From contig NZ_JAAFZB010000095.1 in NCBI RefSeq assembly GCF_010692725.1, positions 62,001-126,000 on the forward strand: a DNA stretch of 64,000 nt, read 5' to 3'. The notes beneath the pieces were generated by a model, which saw only the letters and a list, made by a program, of their open reading frames with translations, ran no database searches and was not told where the DNA came from. Shown in pieces: positions 51,442 through 63,272 of this stretch. Every line of letters starts with the position of its first letter. Position 1 is the stretch's first letter. The translations under genes and the position numbers were made by a program. This stretch comes from Flavihumibacter soli (lineage in GTDB: Bacteria; Bacteroidota; Bacteroidia; Sphingobacteriales; Sphingobacteriaceae).

Positions 51442-52590
51442 TTATACTACCGACGAAGTGGTAAAACAACTTTTGATTTTATTAATTACCAACCGGATCT
51501 CATATTCTGTTAAGTTTGAACCTGAGGGTAAGCATAATCCAATTCGAAATAACTTTTCCGCGGTTCCGTCTCCGTAAAAAGGATAATTACTAAAAATTGG
51601 TTGCATATGCATTGGTTTCCATACGGGTCGTGCCTCAATATTATCTTCGCCTAAACTCAGGCGAAGTTGATCACTTGTTAACCGATCAACGCTTTCATCA
51701 AGGGTTATAGCACTTAACCAATGATTAGAGAAAAAGGTATCATTAGGTTCCTCCTGAAACTTAATATTTGAGATGTGACTAAGTAACCGCTTGTAATGAG
51801 AGAAGTTTCTTCTCCGTTGATAAATTCTCAATGGCAAAACCTCCATTTGCCCCCGTCCTATACTTGCACAGATATTACTCATTCGGTAATTATATCCCAC
51901 ATGAGAGTGCTGATAGTGCGGGGCGGCATCGCGCGCCTGGGTCGCTAAAAATCGGGCCTTTATTATCCAATCCTCATTTTTTGAAACTAGAGCGCCTCCG
52001 CCGGAAGTCGTGATGATTTTATTTCCGTTAAAAGACAGTATTGCCAAATCACCAAAGGTTCCTAGCTTCCGTCCTTTATAAGTCGATCCAAGCGCTTCTG
52101 CTGCATCCTCAACAACCGGGATCTGATACTTTCGCGAAATTGCCATTATCTCATCCATTTTCGCTGGCATCCCATAAAGATGGACTACAATAATAGCTTT
52201 CGGCTTTTTCCCTTTCCCCAATCTATCCCTGATGGCGATCTCCAAAAACTCAGGAGACATATTCCATGTGCTTTCCTCGCTTTCTACAAAAATGGGCGTA
52301 GCACCTTGATACATTATTGGATTAGCTGAAGCTGAGAAAGTAAGAGATTGGCACAGCACTTCGTCACCTGCCTTAACACCCAAAATAATCAATGCAAGAT
52401 GCAATGAAGCCGTTCCTGAACTTAAGGCAGCCACATAAACATCATTCCCCAGGTAAGTTGCTATATCTTTTTCAAAACCATCTACATGCGGTCCTAAGGG
52501 GGCAATCCAGTTACTATCGAATGCATTCTTCAAAAATAAGAATTCACTTCCTCCCATATGGGGAGATGATAAGCTGATTTTTTTATTCAT
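51442..52590 (-). CDS. DegT/DnrJ/EryC1 family sugar aminotransferase (PglE-like)
   Basis: This 382-residue PLP enzyme resembles UDP-4-keto-sugar C4 aminotransferases (PglE type). Motifs are SSPHMGGSEFLFLKNAFDSNWIAPLG (short: NWIAPLGPHV), ALSSGTASLHLAL, VVEDAAEALGSTYKGRKLG and the PLP-Lys in LSFNGNKIITTSGGG. It likely makes a 4-amino-4,6-dideoxy sugar nucleotide for the glycan started by the PglC-like enzyme upstream. The 4,6-dehydratase is not in the window. Confidence 0.9.
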   Translation of the reverse strand: MNKKISLSSPHMGGSEFLFLKNAFDSNWIAPLGPHVDGFEKDIATYLGNDVYVAALSSGTASLHLALIILGVKAGDEVLCQSLTFSASANPIMYQGATPIFVESEESTWNMSPEFLEIAIRDRLGKGKKPKAIIVVHLYGMPAKMDEIMAISRKYQIPVVEDAAEALGSTYKGRKLGTFGDLAILSFNGNKIITTSGGGALVSKNEDWIIKARFLATQARDAAPHYQHSHVGYNYRMSNICASIGRGQMEVLPLRIYQRRRNFSHYKRLLSHISNIKFQEEPNDTFFSNHWLSAITLDESVDRLTSDQLRLSLGEDNIEARPVWKPMHMQPIFSNYPFYGDGTAEKLFRIGLCLPSGSNLTEYEIRLVINKIKSCFTTSSVV

Positions 52591-52683: not shown

Positions 52684-53808
52684 TCAGAAATTACTCAGTT
52701 CTCTGTAAAGGGGGAAAAAGTCCGATTCTATGGTTCTATTTCCCCATCTCGCCCTAACCAGTTGGTTGTAAACCACAGGGTTGGATACAAATCTCCAGGT
52801 CTTAAAGTTTAAAATAGTCTCGGAAAATCCTGCCTTAAATTCAAACAGTGAGTCTTCGTTCCCTCCAACACCTCCACCAAGATGCAAATAGTCCATGCTT
52901 CTCTCGCGTCCAACTACCGTAGCTTCATCAATTAAAAGCTTCATTGGACCCTCATGTAAATACTTGTTATTCGTAGCGGCTAAATGAAACTGCATTATGT
53001 TATTTGAAAACGTTACAAAAGCTCCAGAGGTTATTTCATCACCGCAGTACAAAAGGAGTACCGAACTTTCAAAATCGGCAGAATTCAGCATATTAAAAAA
53101 ATAACTCTCATTAAAATAGTAATAAGATTCCGCTTTTACACGTGCCATATTCTCGTTATATACTTTTACAAACGCCTTCACCTCCTCATCAGACTCTGCA
53201 TTTTTCAGGTAGAAACCTTTCTCCCGTAGCTGTCTGATCTTAGAACGGAACTGACGGCGATATTTTGATCGTTGCTCCTCAAGCGAATTGGTTAAGTCTA
53301 TCACAACTGTTTTCCCATTCTCAACAAGACTTCCGAACTTTTCCACCAAAATATCGTGGTTAATTATGGGATGAAGTCTGCAGAATACAGAAACATTCTT
53401 TTCCTGCCCTAAAAACATCAAAAAGGCTTGCTTAAAACCTTCCATTGTTTTCTGTTCCATTTGGTTGAAATCGAGATTAGAAATTGGGCCCGCATATCCA
53501 TAAACTGAGGTGAAGTCACTGTATTCCGTCTTGTTAATACTGCGTTTCAAAAGCGGAAACACAATAAAACAATTTTGTTCCTCATATACAAACAGTACCG
53601 GTTCGCCGCTTTTTTCTAACGAATGATAGTACCACGTATGATAGAAATCATACATTTTACAAGAATGAACATACTCATTCCAAAGATCTCTTTCCTGAAC
53701 GGTAACTAATCGATACGGCATATTTTCAAGTTGGTCGGTCTTGGGAATTAATTCATGATTTTTGCTAACAACATAAGTGCCTGGGTTACTACCCTTTAGT
53801 ATATTCAT
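52684..53808 (-). CDS. FemAB-like / GNAT-type acyltransferase
   Basis: This 374-residue protein has two GNAT-like halves of the FemAB fold, including DFYHTWYYHSLEKSGEPVLFVYE, RRQFRSKIRQLREKGFYL, FHLAATNNKYLHEGPMKLLIDEA and MDYLHLGGGVGGNEDSLFEFKAGFS near the C-terminus (quoted in short: LHLGGGVGGNEDSLFEFK). FemAB proteins add amino acids or acyl groups to cell-wall or glycan precursors. In this spot it replaces the PglD-type left-handed helix acetyltransferase usually found beside PglC and PglE, so acylation of the 4-amino sugar is a fair guess. A start at residue 30 (MPYRLVT) is possible. Confidence 0.82.
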   Translation of the reverse strand: MNILKGSNPGTYVVSKNHELIPKTDQLENMPYRLVTVQERDLWNEYVHSCKMYDFYHTWYYHSLEKSGEPVLFVYEEQNCFIVFPLLKRSINKTEYSDFTSVYGYAGPISNLDFNQMEQKTMEGFKQAFLMFLGQEKNVSVFCRLHPIINHDILVEKFGSLVENGKTVVIDLTNSLEEQRSKYRRQFRSKIRQLREKGFYLKNAESDEEVKAFVKVYNENMARVKAESYYYFNESYFFNMLNSADFESSVLLLYCGDEITSGAFVTFSNNIMQFHLAATNNKYLHEGPMKLLIDEATVVGRERSMDYLHLGGGVGGNEDSLFEFKAGFSETILNFKTWRFVSNPVVYNQLVRARWGNRTIESDFFPLYRELSNF

Positions 53809-53913: not shown

Positions 53914-54546
53914 TTACCTTACCGGCAAAGATTCTTTTGTTGACCTCTCGACGTCCAGGGGATGCATATGGCTATCCGGATCAATAACTACATCTTTACC
54001 CGAGATCACGCTAAGAAACGTTTTGTATAATATTTCCATGTCTAATATAAATGACAGGTTTTCAAAGTAATATACATCCGCAGCCAGTCGGGCGTCCCAG
54101 GATGAAACATTTCGGCCATTTACCTGAGCCCAACCGGTAATCCCGGGCCGTATCTTATGGCGTAATTTCTCTTTTACACTATAGTGTGGTAAATATCGAG
54201 GCAAGAGAGGACGTGGCCCAATTAAACTCATATCTCCTACAATTACATTGATAAGCTGAGGTAATTCGTCCAGCGAGCTTTTGCGTAAAATTTTTCCCAT
54301 TGGGGTTAATCTTACCGCATCCGGCAATAACAATCCTTCAGCATCCTTTGCCTCGGTCATGGTTTTAAACTTATATAGCTTAAAAAGCTCTTCATTTAAT
54401 CCGGGTCTAATCTGAACAAAAAATGGATTGCCCTGATTTATGACGTATAAAATAGCAGCAATGGTAATAAAAACTGGAAATAAAATAATGAAGACTGTTC
54501 CAGCAACAAGCAAATCCAAGATCCTTTTAATATATAAGCGATACAT
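53914..54546 (-). CDS. PglC-like monotopic phosphoglycosyl transferase
   Basis: This 210-residue enzyme starts glycan assembly by moving a phospho-sugar onto undecaprenyl phosphate. It matches Campylobacter PglC closely in size and motifs: the N-terminal re-entrant hydrophobic helix (LDLLVAGTVFIILFPVFI), LYKFKTMTEAKDAEG, the catalytic Asp-Glu in SSLDELPQLINV, GDMSLIGPRPL and RPGITGWAQVNGRN. The short form without the polytopic N-terminus is typical of the PglC subfamily. It is followed at 105 bp by the FemAB-like gene. Confidence 0.93.
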   Translation of the reverse strand: MYRLYIKRILDLLVAGTVFIILFPVFITIAAILYVINQGNPFFVQIRPGLNEELFKLYKFKTMTEAKDAEGLLLPDAVRLTPMGKILRKSSLDELPQLINVIVGDMSLIGPRPLLPRYLPHYSVKEKLRHKIRPGITGWAQVNGRNVSSWDARLAADVYYFENLSFILDMEILYKTFLSVISGKDVVIDPDSHMHPLDVERSTKESLPVR

Positions 54547-54577: not shown

Positions 54578-55255
54578 TTAATTACTATAAGAACTAACTT
54601 TTATCTCAGATAAAGTTGCAACTACTTCAGTGGGATAATTTATTTGATTTAAGCTTTGATTTTTGATATGGATATTTAAGCCATTGTCCAAAAGCGCTAT
54701 CGTCCTCCATCCTAACTTATTGGGGGCGACGAAGTCCTTATTGTAGTTATCTGCCAGATAAACGAATTTTTCACTATCAAATCTGGTCATAAACAACAGA
54801 AAAGGCTCTTCGCATGGCTTTTCGAAACCGCATTCCTCCGAAACACTAACTAAATTCATCCATTTATTTAAACCGAGAGCTTCGATCTTATTTCGTTGGG
54901 TTACACTTCGTCCATCCGTAAGGAGGCCGATGCTATTGCCATTCCTTTTCAAGGCCTCCAATAGATTAAAAGCTTCCGAACTGATCGAAATATCCGGTTT
55001 GTGGTTTCTGTAAAATGCTATCAAAATTTCTAAAGAGTACTTGTCGTTGTTTGTAAGGTATTCGTCAGAAAGCCAGTTCAATACCCTGTTCCCCAAAAAA
55101 TATTGGGCCATCATCATTCTGAATAATTTTTTCGGATGTTCTCCCTCGATCATTTGTGCTATTGCCCAAAAAGCTGATCTCATATAGTCAAACTCCTTAT
55201 ATAGAAGATCATCCAAATCAAAAATTACTGCTTCATTATTATAAATTTGAGTCAT
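54578..55255 (-). CDS. HAD family hydrolase
   Basis: This 225-residue HAD protein has motif I IFDLDDLLYKE (DxD), motif II in IGLLTDGRS, a motif III Lys in CGFEKPCEEPF and motif IV VYLADNYNKDFVAPNKLG (Asp). It overlaps the ATP-grasp gene by 17 bp. HAD/ATP-grasp pairs recur in Bacteroidota capsule and O-antigen loci. The phosphatase substrate is unknown. Confidence 0.9.
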   Translation of the reverse strand: MTQIYNNEAVIFDLDDLLYKEFDYMRSAFWAIAQMIEGEHPKKLFRMMMAQYFLGNRVLNWLSDEYLTNNDKYSLEILIAFYRNHKPDISISSEAFNLLEALKRNGNSIGLLTDGRSVTQRNKIEALGLNKWMNLVSVSEECGFEKPCEEPFLLFMTRFDSEKFVYLADNYNKDFVAPNKLGWRTIALLDNGLNIHIKNQSLNQINYPTEVVATLSEIKVSSYSN

Positions 55256-56244: not shown

Positions 56245-57411
56245 TCAATTGCTAACTCTTGTACTACACAAGTATTTGTACTCCTTTAAAATTTCATTCT
56301 GGATAAAAGCTTGGTCATACTTTTCAACTATCATACTCCGGCTGCAGTTAGTCATCTGCTGCCTAAGTTCCCGATCAGCGAGAAGTTTTTCCATCGCTAA
56401 TCTCAATGCATCAGCATTCTTAACCGGAATTATCAACCCATTCTGACCTTCCTGGATAATTTCATTACATCCGTTAATATCAGTTACTATGCATGGTAAA
56501 CCCATTGCCCCAGCCTGCATTACTACATTGGGAAATCCTTCCCGGTAACTGGGAAAAACGAAAGCATCACTCATGCCAAGGTATGGACGTACATCTGCTT
56601 TGAAGTCAACCCAGATGATAGAATCATTGTTAATTATTGAATCTTCCGTTATTTCATTAATAGGGTCTAAATCACGCTCAAATGGCCCCAACAGTAACAG
56701 TTTAACATCAGAACGGCTAGCTAAAACCCCGTCAAAAGCCTTGATTAATTCATGAATTCCCTTATCAGCAACAATTCGGCCAATAAAACAATATACAAAA
56801 TCATTGTCACTAATATTCAACGATTTTCTCAATTCGTTCCTGTTTTGAGGCTGAGGAAGATTTCGGGGATTAAAGAACTCTGTGTCAATGCCATTTGAAC
56901 TTCCATTTCCTATTACCTTAAGCTTACATGGGGGGCAGAAGCTATTCTGAATTATGATCTGCTTCATTGCGAGGGAGTTAGGATACACTTGACTTGCGAA
57001 TTTATAAGTCGCCTTCTCTACAAACTCAAGCAAGACTCTTGTGAATCCCTCTTTCTCCAACAATGGCATTCCTGCCACGGTATGCAAGCGTAACGGAACA
57101 CCGGCAAGCCACGCAGCCATCATTCCCAGCAGGCCAGCTTTAGGTGTGTGAGTGTGTACTATTTCCGGCTTTTCCTTCTTTAATAGAAAATATAATTTCC
57201 AAAGGGCCACCAGGTCTTTAAACGGTGTTATCTGACGTGTCATATCAATTGCGACAGTTCTCACTCCCGTTTGCTGGCCCACCTCCTCTAATGCATCGCC
57301 TCCAGAGGACACAGCCACCACATCATAATGAGCTGACATGAATTTTAACTGACTTCGTAATAATACCAATAAAGATATTGGAACTGTAGTTATTCGTACA
57401 AGTTTGTGCAT
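56245..57411 (-). CDS. Glycosyltransferase family 4 protein
   Basis: This 388-residue GT-B enzyme has the N-terminal acceptor half (MHKLVRITTVPISLLVLLRSQL, IVHTHTPKAGLLGMMAAWLAGV) and the donor half with VYCFIGRIVADKGIHELIKAF and the nucleotide-sugar site SYREGFPNVVMQAGAMGLP. The second Glu of the usual E-x7-E is Gln here, a variant I recall in GT4 members beside PglC-like enzymes. It probably adds the second sugar. The ATP-grasp gene follows 34 bp later. Confidence 0.9.
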   Translation of the reverse strand: MHKLVRITTVPISLLVLLRSQLKFMSAHYDVVAVSSGGDALEEVGQQTGVRTVAIDMTRQITPFKDLVALWKLYFLLKKEKPEIVHTHTPKAGLLGMMAAWLAGVPLRLHTVAGMPLLEKEGFTRVLLEFVEKATYKFASQVYPNSLAMKQIIIQNSFCPPCKLKVIGNGSSNGIDTEFFNPRNLPQPQNRNELRKSLNISDNDFVYCFIGRIVADKGIHELIKAFDGVLASRSDVKLLLLGPFERDLDPINEITEDSIINNDSIIWVDFKADVRPYLGMSDAFVFPSYREGFPNVVMQAGAMGLPCIVTDINGCNEIIQEGQNGLIIPVKNADALRLAMEKLLADRELRQQMTNCSRSMIVEKYDQAFIQNEILKEYKYLCSTRVSN

Positions 57412-57533: not shown

Positions 57534-58868
57534 TTACAATTGATCTATACTTAACTGACCATTGCTATGCTTTTTTAAAACTGCCTTAATCTCGCCATCA
57601 TTTAATACATTTCCATTAGACTGCTTCACCCGTGCAGAGGTGACTTCGACTTTAAATTCGTTTTGATCTGTTATAAATGCAAGGGGACGATCTCCAATAG
57701 TCGAATTCCATGTAGGATTGATGATGCTAATTTTACCCAATACCTCGCCACCATAGATCCCATTTTTTCTATTGCAGGCTACCTTAACTGCAAAACTTTT
57801 AGATCCAACATCTACATGATTAATTATTTTCACATCAACTTTTTTGGGATTGCCGCCGAGTAGAGTACTAATCCCTATTTGTATTCCACTTCCTCCATTA
57901 TATTCTGTTTTTGGATTAATAACTTTAACGTTCTTGATTTCACAGCCTGGATTATTGGTTTCGAAATTGATCCCACACATGGGCTTCGTTCCATCATGGT
58001 GTGCAGAATAAACATTTTCCAATACAAGTCCGTTCACTGAAATTATCGAAATCCCATCTCTTCTATTTTTACTTAAATAGGCGTCTTTGATAAATATATT
58101 TTTCGGAACATCACCCTTTCCTACCTGGCCAATATAAATGCCATCACCCCAACAATCAGTAATTCGGGCACCAATAACATTAATATTACTTGAACCCTTG
58201 ATACTAATACCCATACCCCACTCGCCACCTTTTCCTAAATGATTAAAACGATCACCTTGAATAACCGGATTTACAAGCGTAATATTATTTGCGTTTTTTA
58301 TGTCCAGGATAGCATATCCGGTTTCCTGACTAGGCTTCAACTTAAGCAACGACCCCTTTAAAAAAGTAATAGTCGTATTTGAACTAATCTTTAACCCGGT
58401 ATCGTTAATTAAGATGGGAAAAGGAGGGAAAACAACATTATCATATCTATTCAATGCGCGTTGAACATACAATGTATAGTCAACCGTTCCGTTTTTTACA
58501 TAGCCAACAGGCAAGTCATCAATAATGTAGTGACTGGTTGCTGTAATTGCAGGCTCCACCAAATGCGACGCTATAACGGTTTTGCTACTTGAGTTCAAAC
58601 CCAGAGTTGCATTTGAATCTACTTTTTTGCTTGAGACCTTACGGGGATATTGAGATGTATTTTTAGATTGAGTGCCGCGATCTTCGTTAGTAATCTCACG
58701 GCTAGTATCCAATGAACTTTCACCCAAATTTGGCGTGCTTACTTTATGATAGGTTAAATGAGAACTAGAACCTCTTTGTTGGTCCTCTGCCGAAGTGCAA
58801 CCAACATGAAGTGCTTGTAATATTACTACCCCTACTATAATGCCCTTTATCCATTCGCTTTTAGCCAT
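57534..58868 (-). CDS. Right-handed beta-helix lipoprotein A (no malectin domain)
   Basis: This 444-residue lipoprotein (acceptor Cys24 in ALHVGC) has a ~90-residue linker. A parallel beta-helix follows that is clearly paralogous to the next two genes: YIIDDLPVGYVKNGTVDYT, NDTGLKISSNTTITF, CWGDGIYIGQ, NRRDGISII and GCEIKNVKV. It ends about 60 residues after the helix and lacks the malectin domain of its paralogues. It lies 122 bp upstream of the GT4 gene in the same direction. Pectate-lyase-type folds bind or cut polysaccharide, but no catalytic set is recognisable. Confidence 0.85.
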   Translation of the reverse strand: MAKSEWIKGIIVGVVILQALHVGCTSAEDQQRGSSSHLTYHKVSTPNLGESSLDTSREITNEDRGTQSKNTSQYPRKVSSKKVDSNATLGLNSSSKTVIASHLVEPAITATSHYIIDDLPVGYVKNGTVDYTLYVQRALNRYDNVVFPPFPILINDTGLKISSNTTITFLKGSLLKLKPSQETGYAILDIKNANNITLVNPVIQGDRFNHLGKGGEWGMGISIKGSSNINVIGARITDCWGDGIYIGQVGKGDVPKNIFIKDAYLSKNRRDGISIISVNGLVLENVYSAHHDGTKPMCGINFETNNPGCEIKNVKVINPKTEYNGGSGIQIGISTLLGGNPKKVDVKIINHVDVGSKSFAVKVACNRKNGIYGGEVLGKISIINPTWNSTIGDRPLAFITDQNEFKVEVTSARVKQSNGNVLNDGEIKAVLKKHSNGQLSIDQL

Positions 58869-58931
58869 TATATATGTTCGAAACTAATAAATCCAAATAT
58901 AAAGTGTAAGATATTTAAAGCATCCCCGCAA

Positions 58932-60593
58932 CTACTTCTTTTTTACGTGGAAAGCGGCGATCTTCGCATTGTCCAGATCTGTCCGGAAATCAATTTTTAA
59001 CAAACCATCCGTAACTGACACAGTTTTGACAATATCATATGCTCTGTTAAGCCCCGCAACTGCAAATAAATCAAGATTAGAAACAATTGCGTTATTTTCC
59101 ACTAATATATCAAAGCGTCTTTCTCCTAAACCATTATGAAAGATTTCCGCCATCCTAAATGTTATCTCATAAGTCCCATTACTTACAGGAATGCTATAGG
59201 AGAAATTACCAAACCGTTCGCTTTGATATAAAATATCATCTGATGTATTGCTGATTGCATCACTTGTCCGAAAGGTATTTCCCCCAGAGTAATTTTTATC
59301 TGCACTGTAAGTTATACCATTTGACGCTTTGAACAGCGAACCGCCCGCATTGACGGCAAACACTACAGCATTATCAGTGCCAGAATCAACTGGAGCTTCG
59401 TCCAACCCACCAAAAATTGGATCAATGACACTCGTAACAGCTACATTCGGCCCTGCGGTTGACAAACTGGTGTAAGTGGCAGACCACGAAAGAATCGCCC
59501 CACTTAAATTCATTATCTCAGGAGATGAAATAGCAATTTTAAGCCCTAACTGGTCTGTAAGGATATGCAAAGGTCTGCCGCTAACTGTTTTTTGCCACGT
59601 GGGATTAACAAAATTGATCACGCCAAACATCTTAGCTGAATTTCCTTCCAGCGGACGAACTGAAAACTTGAAAGCGGAAGATGGGGAACCGATATCTTTA
59701 TGATTAACAATAGTGATATCGATTGTCTTGTTAGTATTATCAAGCATATGATGACCGGTTAGCTGTATTCCACGCTCACCATTATACTCCGTGTGAGGAT
59801 TATTAATTCGAACATTCTTAAGTTCACATGCAGCATTATTTGCCTCAAAGTTTATTCCACTGCCCGGCACAGTTCCCTCATTATATCCTGCATATATGTT
59901 ATCGATCAATAATCCATCTACTGCTATAATTGAGATCCCATCTCGCCTGTTTCTACGCAAGTAGGCGTCTTTGATTACGATATTTTTGCAGTTAACCTCC
60001 CCCCCTATCTGTCCTATATAAATGCCGTCACCCCAGCACTTGGTAATCGTGGGATTATAAATAGTTATATTAGTCGAACCACGAATTCCGATTCCCATTC
60101 CCCATTCTCCGGTGGTTCCAGTATGTGAATCCCTATCTCCAACGATAACCGGGTTATACAGAGTGACGTTACTGACACCATAGATGTTAAAAATATTGTA
60201 CCCCTCTTTAGAGGTCGCTTTCAATCTTACTTCTGACCCCTCCTCGAAAGTAATGGTTTTGTTGGACCCCACATTTATTCCTTTATCATTAATAAGAATT
60301 GGAAAGCCAGGGAAAACGATATTGCTGTATTTATTTATCGCATCCTGAACATACGATGTATAATCCCGCGAACCGTCCCGCACAAAGCCAGAAGGTAACG
60401 AGTTTACCAGATAGTAACTATTGGAGGTAACACCTGTAGCTGCCAGTTTAATTCCTTCCTTCATGGCTCCTAATTTTTGTAGTTCAGAGGGCGGCTCTAG
60501 TAAGGATTCTTTCTTGCAGTTGGAAAGAAACAGAACAGAAAATACCAAAATTCCATTTAAAACCCAAATTTTTAAGTTGCTTTTTTTTATCAT
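58932..60593 (-). CDS. Right-handed beta-helix lipoprotein B with malectin domain
   Basis: This 553-residue lipoprotein (acceptor Cys26 in LFLSNC) has a beta-helix at about 50-400 with YYLVNSLPSGFVRDGSRDYT, INVGSNKTITFEEGSEVRL, CWGDGIYIGQ, NRRDGISIIAVDGLLIDNIY and ACELKNVRI. The C-terminal ~150 residues are a malectin-type carbohydrate-binding domain (FAVNAGGSLFKASNGITY ... YQSERFGNFSYSIPV ... FRMAEIFHN). I use the ATG at 60593 rather than the GTG at 60602. It is 63 bp upstream of lipoprotein A. Confidence 0.87.
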   Translation of the reverse strand: MIKKSNLKIWVLNGILVFSVLFLSNCKKESLLEPPSELQKLGAMKEGIKLAATGVTSNSYYLVNSLPSGFVRDGSRDYTSYVQDAINKYSNIVFPGFPILINDKGINVGSNKTITFEEGSEVRLKATSKEGYNIFNIYGVSNVTLYNPVIVGDRDSHTGTTGEWGMGIGIRGSTNITIYNPTITKCWGDGIYIGQIGGEVNCKNIVIKDAYLRRNRRDGISIIAVDGLLIDNIYAGYNEGTVPGSGINFEANNAACELKNVRINNPHTEYNGERGIQLTGHHMLDNTNKTIDITIVNHKDIGSPSSAFKFSVRPLEGNSAKMFGVINFVNPTWQKTVSGRPLHILTDQLGLKIAISSPEIMNLSGAILSWSATYTSLSTAGPNVAVTSVIDPIFGGLDEAPVDSGTDNAVVFAVNAGGSLFKASNGITYSADKNYSGGNTFRTSDAISNTSDDILYQSERFGNFSYSIPVSNGTYEITFRMAEIFHNGLGERRFDILVENNAIVSNLDLFAVAGLNRAYDIVKTVSVTDGLLKIDFRTDLDNAKIAAFHVKKK

Positions 60594-60947
60594 AACTAGC
60601 ACGTTTTTTCGGAGATGTAACGCAGTTCTAACGGTTATCTTACAATTATCTTAGAAATAAAATTCTTACCGCTTAAAATGACCTAAAATTAAATTTAGCA
60701 TGAGTAAAATCATTATCTAGGGTTGAAACTACGATTATGCAGTTTCTTTAAAGATATACAAGTTAATCTAATAAACTTAATATAACTTAATAACATATTA
60801 ATTTTCTGGCATATTTTTTTTTTTGAATAGGTCTTAAAAATTGTCCATTGCTAAGTACACAATATTGAACAAGCACAAAAAAACCTTAAGGCTCAATTCA
60901 ATTTGTGAATTGAGCCTTAAGGTTTTTTTGTGTGTAGAAGGGTGTAT
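60594..60947. other. AT-rich region between lipoprotein B and C genes
   Basis: This 354-bp gap holds a very strong terminator (60874-60932) close to the end of lipoprotein C. The remainder is AT-rich and presumably promotes lipoprotein B. I see no TAnnTTTG box that I trust and no coding frame. Confidence 0.6.
60874..60932 (-). terminator. 27-bp perfect hairpin terminator after lipoprotein C
   Basis: The arms 60874-60900 and 60906-60932 are perfectly complementary over 27 bp with a 5-base loop (ATTTG), including A7/T7 runs on both outer ends. It sits 16 bases past the lipoprotein C stop and would terminate in either direction. Confidence 0.92.
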
Positions 60948-62645
60948 TTACTTTTTGATTACATGAAAAGCGGAAACTTTCGCGTTATCAATATCAGTAC
61001 GGAAGGTCAGGTTTAAAGTACCATCGGTAACTGATACTGTTTTTACGATATCATGTGCATTGTTGACTCCTGCAGTGGCGTACATATCCAGATTAGAAAC
61101 AATTTCATTATTTTCTGCTAATATATCAAAGCGTCTTTTTCCTGATGCTTTATGATAAAGTTCCGACATTTTGAAAGTTACCTCGTAGGTTCCATTAGCA
61201 ACAGGCACCGCGTAACTGAAATTTCCATAACGCTCACTCTGGTATAGAGCATCGTCAGAAGTGTTCGTTATTGCATTCGTAGATTTATACACATAACCCT
61301 TACTGAAATTTTTATCAGCAGCATATGTAATACCATTGGAAGCTTTGAACGAAGAGCCTCCAGCGTTTACTGCAAACACTACGCTACCTGTGGTTGACGG
61401 AGCACTCGGAGCAGGTGCACTTACAATAGGAGTGGAGAACGCTGGATCCGCCACCTCCGATACTTTCAAAAATCCAGAGCTGGCCATTTTCATTAAAAGG
61501 CTGGAAGTCGCGGAATATGACAAAATAGAGCCGCTTGTGTTCATTATCTCCGGAGAAGAAACTTCTACGATAAAGTTAGACTGATCGCTACTTAAATATA
61601 ACGGCTGGTTAGTTTCCGTTGCAGTTTTATGCCAGGTTGGATTTACCAGTCTAAGCTTTCCATACATTTTTGCAGTATGTCCATCTGTTGGCCGGCATGA
61701 CCACTTTGTTGCAAATCTTGGAGAACCTACATCTTTATGATTGACGATAGTGATATCCACGTTTTTGTTAATACTTCCAAGCATATGATGAGCTGTAACC
61801 TGGATACCGTTTGAGCCGTTAAATTCAGTCACCGGGTTATTGATTCTAATATTTTTCAGTTCACATTCCGGATTGTTAGGCTCAAAATTGATTCCGGTCA
61901 TTGGCTTGGTACCGTCGGTATAACCTGCATAGATATTATCCAGCAACAAACCATCGACAGCGATAATCGAAATCCCGTCTCTCCTGTTTTTGCGCAGGTA
62001 TGCATCCTTAATTACAATATTTTTGCAAATGGATTTATCAACTGCCTGGCCGATATAGATTCCATCACCCCAGCAGTTAGAAACCTTAGGGCTATAAATG
62101 GTAATATTACTGGAACCCCGGATGCCGATACCAATTCCAAACTCACCGCTGGTACCAATATGGGAATTCCGGTCTCCAACAACCACGGGATTATACAAAG
62201 TAACATTGGTGGCATCATAGATATTCAGCATATAGTACCCTGAACTGGATGTTCCTTTTAACCGAACTTCAGAACCTTCCGGAAAAGAAATAGTTTTATT
62301 GGAACCTATTCTCAGACCGTTATCGTTAATTAAAATCGGGAACGCCGGAAAAACAATATTGCTATACTTGGTAATTGCTGCCTGAACATAAGAGGTATAG
62401 TCTTTAGAACCGTCCTTGACGTAACCAGCTGGAAGCGAGTTCACAAGATAATAGCTGTCGGAAGTTATCCCGGTTGCCGCTACTGCCGCATCCGAAAGAG
62501 TTTCAGCTACCAATTCGCTGGATTGAAGTGTATCTAACTGAGTTTCCTCCAAATTATCTTTTTTACACTGGCTAAATAGTAAAGCGACCGATGTAAGTAA
62601 GGAGAGAGCGATAATTTGATTTTTGAAACTGTTTTTGATATTCAT
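60948..62645 (-). CDS. Right-handed beta-helix lipoprotein C with malectin domain
   Basis: This 565-residue lipoprotein (acceptor Cys27 in LLFSQC) has the same plan as lipoprotein B: YYLVNSLPAGYVKDGSKDYT, RIGSNKTISFPEGSEVRL, CWGDGIYIGQ, NRRDGISIIAVDGLLLDNIY, ECELKNIRI, then a Ser/Pro/Ala linker (SAPAPSAPSTTGS) and malectin-type domain (FAVNAGGSSFKASNGITY ... YQSERYGNFSYAVPV). Two Cys positions (CWGDG and CELKN) are invariant in all three paralogues. Its own terminator means it is transcribed independently of A and B. Confidence 0.87.
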   Translation of the reverse strand: MNIKNSFKNQIIALSLLTSVALLFSQCKKDNLEETQLDTLQSSELVAETLSDAAVAATGITSDSYYLVNSLPAGYVKDGSKDYTSYVQAAITKYSNIVFPAFPILINDNGLRIGSNKTISFPEGSEVRLKGTSSSGYYMLNIYDATNVTLYNPVVVGDRNSHIGTSGEFGIGIGIRGSSNITIYSPKVSNCWGDGIYIGQAVDKSICKNIVIKDAYLRKNRRDGISIIAVDGLLLDNIYAGYTDGTKPMTGINFEPNNPECELKNIRINNPVTEFNGSNGIQVTAHHMLGSINKNVDITIVNHKDVGSPRFATKWSCRPTDGHTAKMYGKLRLVNPTWHKTATETNQPLYLSSDQSNFIVEVSSPEIMNTSGSILSYSATSSLLMKMASSGFLKVSEVADPAFSTPIVSAPAPSAPSTTGSVVFAVNAGGSSFKASNGITYAADKNFSKGYVYKSTNAITNTSDDALYQSERYGNFSYAVPVANGTYEVTFKMSELYHKASGKRRFDILAENNEIVSNLDMYATAGVNNAHDIVKTVSVTDGTLNLTFRTDIDNAKVSAFHVIKK

Positions 62646-63032
62646 TCTTTTGAGTTTTTTGGCATTTCCTACGTGAGCGGTTAAGAATTGGTTACCAAAA
62701 ACTAAAAGAGTGATGCCTGGAGCCTACCGTTCCAAGATTACCTATATCATCACAATTAAATATTGTTGCTCCAGGTGCGTGTAAAAGTTAAAAATATTGC
62801 CACTATAAAAAGTATATTAACTATTCTGCATACCAGGGCAGTTGCTGTTAGCATTAACTGCTACTAAAGATTTTTATACCTAACTGGAATTTATATTTAT
62901 ACATTTTAGTTATTTAAGTAATTCCACGCGTCACATAAAAGCCCGTAAAAGGTTGCGGGATTCTAGTCCAACCTACTATGATGAGAGATAAGAGTAAAGA
63001 ATAGAATACTGATATCCTGTTGATTTACAATC
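62646..63032. other. Region upstream of lipoprotein C, no gene seen
   Basis: This AT-rich stretch must hold the lipoprotein C promoter. It contains a distant inverted pair, CCTGGAGC (62716-62723) and GCTCCAGG (62768-62775), with a 44-base spacer. I see no coding frame or terminator. Confidence 0.5.
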
Positions 63033-63272
63033 GTGACTTCAAACTCAGTTCATAGACACGATGCGATAGATAACAGCGCTAATGAGCTAAATAGAGTGCA
63101 AAAGTTGATTTGGTTCGACCCAGCTGATTTTTCCGGCAGCAAGCAAATGAGTGAACCTGAGTATCGCACTTGGAGTGCCGTATTCCAAAAACAAGCCCAT
63201 TCGTACGGGAAGAAAAGCATGGTACTACTGAAGGAATATAGTAAAAATGTGGAAAATCTTGAGGCGATATAA
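63033..63272 (+). CDS. Possible small protein, unrecognised
   Basis: A 79-codon open frame starting GTG encodes a hydrophilic peptide with aromatic positions (LIWFDPADFSGS, EYRTWSAVFQKQ) and no signal peptide or known motif. It lies in a decayed region beside an IS110 remnant, and there is no evident ribosome binding site. It may be a relic or chance frame. Confidence 0.25.
   Translation: MTSNSVHRHDAIDNSANELNRVQKLIWFDPADFSGSKQMSEPEYRTWSAVFQKQAHSYGKKSMVLLKEYSKNVENLEAI

Follow-up and report, generated by a model that had tools for sequence, protein, structure and literature searches.

Helix proteins encoded within an exopolysaccharide locus

Three genes for beta-helix proteins, P1, P2, and P3, lie in a 64,000-nucleotide stretch of the Flavihumibacter soli genome (contig NZ_JAAFZB010000095.1, positions 62,001 to 126,000), which is called the window here. 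P1-P3 and a fourth tandem copy beyond the window end are proposed to be surface enzymes that cut the bacterium's own exopolysaccharide (EPS), most likely as endo-acting glycosidases, and that are encoded by the EPS locus itself (probability about 0.6). The evidence supports a family that is associated with EPS, probably has a catalytic site, and is likely to be located at the surface. A first-pass annotation of the window had suggested that these proteins 'bind, modify or organise' a polysaccharide. This may be narrowed to 'cut', since the tailspike of Acinetobacter phage APK48, which is related in sequence, is a published capsule hydrolase. The tandem genes are as follows.

57534..58868, minus strand: P1, 444 amino acids; signal-like N-terminus and helix domain, without malectin
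58932..60602, minus strand: P2, 556 amino acids, GTG start; signal-like N-terminus, helix domain, and malectin tail
60948..62645, minus strand: P3, 565 amino acids; signal-like N-terminus, helix domain, and malectin tail
L001:2121-3818 (G000:C95:126124-127818), beyond the window end: fourth tandem copy, from its open reading frame (ORF) and alignment

As annotated, the three ORFs in the window are open on the minus strand at these positions, and each encodes a hydrophobic N-terminus and a helix domain. Since their pairwise protein identity is 47 to 64%, P1-P3 are homologous rather than similar by chance, and the earlier view of them as paralogues holds. In a three-way alignment, 149 of the 388 shared columns are identical, the segments CWGDGIYIGQ and NRRDGISI are the same in all three proteins, and exactly two helix cysteines are shared (C191 and C261 of P3), in agreement with the invariant segments and two fixed cysteines noted at first. 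The Pfam family Beta_helix (PF13229, cut-off 25.9) scores above its cut-off in P1 only (36.1), just below it in P2 (25.0), and below it in P3 (16.8). P3 is predicted as a helix in its structure model, with block values of the predicted local distance difference test (pLDDT) of 87 to 98 across model residues 11-350. Malectin had been claimed for two of the three proteins; the domain (PF11721, Pfam cut-off 23) was found in P2 (102.6 bits) and P3 (103.3 bits) and not in P1.

The four tandem helix genes are situated in the middle of a Wzx/Wzy-type EPS locus. Its order is Poly_export (Wza-like), Wzc-like ATPase, UDP-sugar dehydrogenase, epimerase, flippase, Asn-synthase-like gene, GT4 glycosyltransferase, Wzy, GT4, epimerase, GT4, two plus-strand glycosyltransferase-like genes, the fourth copy, P3, P2, P1, GT4, ATP-grasp, HAD, sugar-phosphate transferase, acetyltransferase, and DegT aminotransferase. 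Beyond the helix genes, the locus goes on with genes for export, flippase, polymerase, and glycosyltransferases, which puts the helix genes inside it. Thus, the earlier description 'beside the glycan cluster' was right that glycan genes adjoin, while the actual position is mid-locus.

A conserved quartet of residues shared with phage tailspikes

Four residues, numbered as in P3, mark the helix family in an alignment of 92 rows.

62142..62144, minus strand: Glu168 of P3 (GEWG/GEFG motif); Glu in 79 of 92 rows
62064..62066, minus strand: Asp194 of P3 (CWGDG motif); 92 of 92 rows; putative catalytic acid
61980..61982, minus strand: Arg222 of P3 (NRRDG motif); 92 of 92 rows
61881..61883, minus strand: Glu255 of P3 (GINFEPN motif); 92 of 92 rows; putative catalytic acid

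Arg221 is also kept, in 91 of the 92 rows. These counts are biased since the loci were partly found by the motifs themselves, and therefore a separate set was collected with a profile (23 new rows, after 10 duplicates among 33 were dropped). In this set, Asp194, Arg222, and Glu255 are present in 23/23 rows and Glu168 in 20/23. In phage rows, the same three residues are present in 13/13 and Glu168 in 12/13; five of the 13 are viral contigs that were also found by motif, and four of those are also among the 92. The genome of F. soli has six helix-domain copies, the four in tandem and two elsewhere (C94:58407-60236 and C93:375743-376873), and all six have Asp194, Arg222, and Glu255. In the P3 model, where 49 is added to a model number to obtain the P3 residue number, the conserved residues adjoin strands on four successive rungs (strands from model residues 120, 147, 176, and 203). 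Because of this register, Glu168, Asp194, Arg222, and Glu255 may all face one groove.

It was found that all three proteins match the phage protein family PHROG 14824 (E 1.6e-47 for P2, 1.6e-41 for P3, and 2.6e-38 for P1). A BLAST search of 50,697 phage records with P3 gave 236 matches, 194 of which belong to Vibrio phages. In the same records, P3 residues 122-299 match APK48_gp43 with an E value of 9e-8. Against the family model, APK48_gp43 scores 132.5 bits and has Glu343, Asp369, Arg402, and Glu435 at the conserved places. The accessible text of PMC8092837 describes APK48_gp43 as a glycosidase that hydrolyses beta-D-GlcNAc-(1-3)-alpha-D-Glc between K48 capsule units. The protein gp22 of crAss001 (PDB 7qoj) also matches the helix profile (E 5e-41), with the segments GEWG, WGDG, NRRQG, and LDIEP. 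Judged by sequence, the helix domain of P1-P3 is thus a family common with phage tailspikes (APK48, gp22, and PHROG 14824). The domain has no functional name in NCBIfam, PHROGs, or Pfam.

Association of the helix family with EPS genes

Is the family near EPS genes in other genomes as well? The surroundings of helix genes were searched (phmmer, E 1e-8; loci up to about 21 kb) with a panel of 18 proteins in 13 classes from this EPS locus, and a locus passed when at least two EPS gene classes lay within about 10 kb of the helix gene. The panel was drawn from one Bacteroidota locus and may miss divergent EPS genes elsewhere. In a sample of the same bacterial family, the helix family is patchy (22 of 201 genomes, the own genome included), and 17 of the 21 other positive genomes pass. 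As a control, only 1/36 arbitrary loci passed; these 20-kb loci were set at fixed offsets in helix-positive genomes, with 33 drawn from 13 genomes of the family sample and 3 from the own genome. Around other PF13229 proteins of the positive genomes, 0/20 loci had two EPS classes and one had a single class (the 20 were taken from the first 30 of 49 rows, leaving out four rows of the family itself, five second rows of one ORF, and the eligible G176:C4). On this control, a general nearness of beta-helix proteins to EPS genes was rejected.

A search of genome contigs gave 71 loci, several of them on one contig and five of their genomes recurring in the family sample, and 46 pass. The first-pass annotation had named homologues lying mainly away from glycan clusters as one refutation, and over all 71 loci this is not what was found. 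The pass rate is 27/30 in Bacteroidota and 19/41 outside (16/31 in Burkholderiales plus Rhodanobacter and 3/10 in other groups). In a sample of the phylum, where at most five candidates per genome were scored, 5/392 genomes were positive at E 1e-30, the own genome included, and 3 of the 4 others pass. In 16 of the 30 Bacteroidota loci, the helix gene is followed by a GT4 gene on the same strand at a distance of -13 to 183 bp. In summary, the supposed link to the polysaccharide is strong in Bacteroidota (27/30 loci and 17/21 family genomes), while it weakens outside the phylum (19/41) and does not extend to two of the six own copies.

Predicted fold

The model of P3 (residues 50-565) has a mean pLDDT of 80.0, and 311 of its 516 residues, in the helix part, reach at least 90. 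Among the best 50 structure matches listed, most are glycan enzymes or phage tailspikes. These include phi29 gp12 (Z 33.3, root-mean-square deviation (rmsd) 3.0, 312 aligned), an alginate epimerase/lyase (Z 33.0, rmsd 2.1, 282 aligned), AlgE6 (Z 32.3), AlgE4 (Z 32.1), RbmB (Z 29.8, rmsd 2.5, 288 aligned), polygalacturonase (Z 29.3), the Sf6 tailspike (Z 29.2), and the adhesin PfbA (Z 29.2). A search of predicted viral proteins found mainly tail spikes and fibres. The predicted fold places P3 among the glycan-active helices. A fold-based search, suggested at first as a way to catalytic residues near CWGDG, did not single out a chemistry.

Malectin tails

60951..61397, minus strand: malectin domain of P3, about residues 417-565

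The P3 tail matches animal malectin sequences with E values of about 1e-15. Among 116 family ORFs, malectin was found in five besides P2, P3, and the fourth copy, namely the own C94 copy and two ORFs of Daejeonella oryzae that each occur in two loci. Daejeonella is a genus of the Sphingobacteriaceae, and the three helix proteins of D. oryzae are identical to those of genome G067, which is placed in one genus with the own genome. When the malectin domain was folded alone, the top matches of this weak model included malectin, MiXBM, and CBM35 entries (E about 1e-4).

A second EPS-like locus of the genome, at C96:704-724 kb (G000:C96:704000-723999, L163), has two fusions of malectin with the polysaccharide-lyase domain PF14099. 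Its genes include a sugar-phosphate transferase, GT4s, a UDP-sugar dehydrogenase, an Asn synthase, and a heparinase II/III. The malectin domains of the two fusions share 54 to 60% identity with the P3 domain. The joining of malectin to two unrelated glycan-degrading folds in two EPS loci supports a role as a polymer-binding module there, though malectin is combined differently in two more proteins of the genome, with an Ig-like domain and a secretion tail in one and with Kelch repeats in the other.

N-termini and anchoring

The signal ends of P1, P2, and P3 have the cysteine segments LHVGC, LSNC, and FSQC, which I take to depart from the classical lipobox pattern. The pattern C-K/R-K-D/E occurs within the first 60 residues of 11 distinct family ORFs (14/116), including those of D. 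oryzae and the own C94 and C93 copies. P1-P3 are likely to be lipoproteins as first annotated, with the qualification that their lipoboxes are not canonical.

Among the copies of Caballeronia and Paraburkholderia without panel EPS genes nearby (L044, L046, L050, L054, L057, L058, and others), several N-termini have an RRKFL-like start and an AACGGG lipobox.

Proposed function and alternatives

In the proposed mechanism, the proteins would be exported and lipid-anchored at the outer membrane. The EPS would be held in the groove that carries Glu168, Asp194, Arg222, and Glu255, with Asp194 and Glu255 as the putative catalytic pair, and the helix domain would cleave the polymer. The malectin tail, present in three of the four tandem copies, may keep the enzyme on the EPS. 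As a result, the chain length might be trimmed, the polymer released from the cell, or the matrix loosened, as RbmB does for Vibrio polysaccharide.

Several points weigh against this proposal. The position of Glu168 is Gln in 3/23 of the profile-found rows and is not Glu in 13/92 rows. APK48_gp43 has no equivalents of Arg221 and Trp192, and the accessible text of PMC8092837 contains no mutagenesis of the Glu/Asp/Arg/Glu quartet. The malectin domain folded alone has a mean pLDDT of only 61. In the panel search, no EPS-panel gene was found near the C94 and C93 copies, so that two of the six own copies lie outside EPS loci. In the family sample, four of the 21 genomes fail (G009, G093, G003, and G138), although the contigs of G009 and G138 cut the locus to 11 and 4 kb. 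The failing loci of the genome-contig search are 3/30 in Bacteroidota, 15/31 in Burkholderiales plus Rhodanobacter, and 7/10 in others, that is, 22/41 outside Bacteroidota. One failing Bacteroidota locus resembles a degradation locus, with GH28 and TonB-receptor genes adjacent (L139), while another has DUF4838 and GDSL lipase genes adjacent (L022). In two failing Caballeronia/Paraburkholderia loci, Pfam found no EPS-synthesis gene among five flanking proteins each. Lastly, the predicted fold cannot separate a hydrolase, a lyase, an epimerase, and a binder, because AlgE-type epimerases (Z 32 to 33) and the adhesin PfbA (Z 29.2) rank similarly.

The proteins might instead be non-catalytic surface lectins or matrix scaffolds, with the helix groove and the malectin tail both holding EPS on the cell. 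The presence of the tail, the rank of PfbA, and the tandem copies, which a structural role would suit, are consistent with this. The crAss001 relative gp22 is described as a trimeric tail fibre, and the strings 'depolymerase' and 'glycosid' occur 0 times in the accessible main text of PMC10172136. However, the two acids and the arginine are strictly conserved in cellular and phage rows and are common with a phage glycosidase, and I regard pure binding as unlikely. A lyase or C5-epimerase that modifies the EPS at a uronic acid would also suit the closest folds (AlgE-type epimerases and the RbmB lyase), and the UDP-sugar dehydrogenase of the locus could supply the uronic acid. Since the characterised sequence relative, APK48_gp43, is a hydrolase according to its accessible description, and the AlgE-type profile matches are short, N-terminal, and weak (E 0.01 to 0.3), such a chemistry seems quite unlikely. 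A role in defence, where surface copies of a phage tailspike domain would shave or mask a phage receptor, would explain the kinship with tailspikes and the patchy presence (22/201 genomes). It is very improbable, as the GT4-adjacent position in EPS loci fits polymer handling.

If the proteins are indeed surface glycosidases against the own EPS, a wider scheme can be considered, possible but doubtful at present. Some EPS loci of Bacteroidota and Burkholderiales may carry a cognate self-depolymerase, while phages use the same family as tailspikes, and the two pools may exchange domains. The locus copy would then report a linkage of the own EPS that can be cut and would be the source of, or derived from, phage host-range enzymes. 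The tandem copies would be variants matched to polymer variants.

Duplication and other copies in the genome

The first-pass annotation counted three tandem copies; three do lie in the window, while the true number is four. The fourth copy is 92% identical to P3 in protein and 93% in DNA, and its malectin domain scores 100.7 bits. The gap of 1,475 bp between P3 and the fourth copy has no ORF of at least 100 amino acids. It contains a remnant that aligns with part of L001:4289-5329 (81% DNA identity over 201 columns), a gene which remains intact as a full ORF on the far side of the fourth copy. Thus, the duplication of P3 probably carried the neighbouring gene with it. The ratio of nonsynonymous to synonymous substitution rates (dN/dS) between P3 and the fourth copy is 0.15 overall, 0.11 in the helix, and 0.28 in the tail; by this measure, both are under purifying selection.

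62949..63141, plus strand: degenerate remnant of a glycosyltransferase-like gene, between P3 and the fourth copy
60880..60926: strong terminator-like hairpin of 20 pairs after P3, between P3 and P2

A sequence resembling this hairpin is present after the fourth copy, too. The terminator scan gave 9 sites, four of which are one hairpin, versus 5.7 (standard deviation 2.5) in shuffled sequences, and the promoter scan gave fewer sites than the shuffles (19 versus a mean of 24.5).

As for the two copies outside the tandem array, the C94 copy (L141:8905-10737) has malectin and lies near a sulfatase and a BNR-repeat protein; this paralogue also has a repeated Pro/Asp/Val linker. The C93 copy (L142:9720-10943) is without malectin and has phytoene synthase, lycopene cyclase, and related genes in its vicinity. 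A tree of 45 helix domains joins P2, P3, the fourth copy, and the C94 and C93 copies in one clade (98/98) and sets the two malectin copies of D. oryzae apart in another (100/100). The helix copies therefore seem to have multiplied independently in the two species.

Neighbouring genes

The genes following P1 in the window are listed below.

56245..57411, minus strand: GT4 glycosyltransferase, 122 bp downstream of P1
55239..56210, minus strand: ATP-grasp protein (Pfam)
54578..55255, minus strand: HAD hydrolase (Pfam)
53914..54546, minus strand: sugar-phosphate transferase (Bac_transf, PglC-like size; Pfam and NCBIfam)
52684..53808, minus strand: GNAT acetyltransferase (Acetyltransf_6; Pfam)
51442..52590, minus strand: DegT-type aminotransferase (LegC family model, just below cut-off)

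On the other side, the plus-strand glycosyltransferase-like genes L001:4289-5329 and L001:5453-6550 are paralogues (50% identical) that run against the direction of the EPS locus. All their Pfam matches are below cut-off.

Comparison with known systems

APK48_gp43 is a member of the same sequence family with the Glu/Asp/Arg/Glu quartet conserved, and is a glycosidase according to its accessible description. However, it is a virion part with a virion-attachment N-terminus, while P1-P3 are cellular proteins with signal-like N-termini and, in P2 and P3, malectin. The crAss001 gp22 resembles them in its helix-profile match and shared motif segments, and differs as a trimeric virion protein for which the accessible text of PMC10172136 names no enzyme activity. 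In the accessible part of a paper on a Vibrio phage depolymerase (PMC12915355), there is no link to the P1-P3 family. A literature survey by title or start of abstract, which does not establish absence from print, found no description of such proteins in EPS loci.

The tails of P2 and P3, presumably to be labelled CBM57, score more than 100 bits as malectin, and that of P3 matches animal malectin; they differ in being bacterial and fused to a helix domain. If malectin binds EPS on unrelated enzyme-like folds in two loci of one genome, this would show a bacterial, EPS-binding use of malectin. WcaM, which I take to be a predicted beta-helix, is situated at the end of an EPS locus, that of colanic acid. 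It was tried as a relative and rejected, with no sequence relation (hhalign probability 7.9%, 1.8 bits).

If the proposed function is true, a domain without a functional name would allow matrix turnover to be approached through genes in many Bacteroidota and in some Burkholderiales. It would also supply candidate enzymes to try on polysaccharides not yet characterised, and would let one examine whether domains that cut capsules are traded between bacteria and phages.

RbmB of Vibrio cholerae is a lyase encoded in a biofilm matrix gene cluster that cuts the organism's own polysaccharide, as described in the accessible text of PMC11637428. Its likeness to P3 lies in the beta-helix fold and in the proposed cutting of the own polysaccharide from a matrix gene cluster. 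It differs in being a lyase, and the family profile, which matched 10 PDB sequences, did not reach it, an absence that does not speak against kinship. By analogy, RbmB appears to be the closest known case in the proposed mode of action, and the match to it is one of fold. Enzymes directed at the product of their own EPS locus are already known: RbmB is one, and PslG and AlgL are others.

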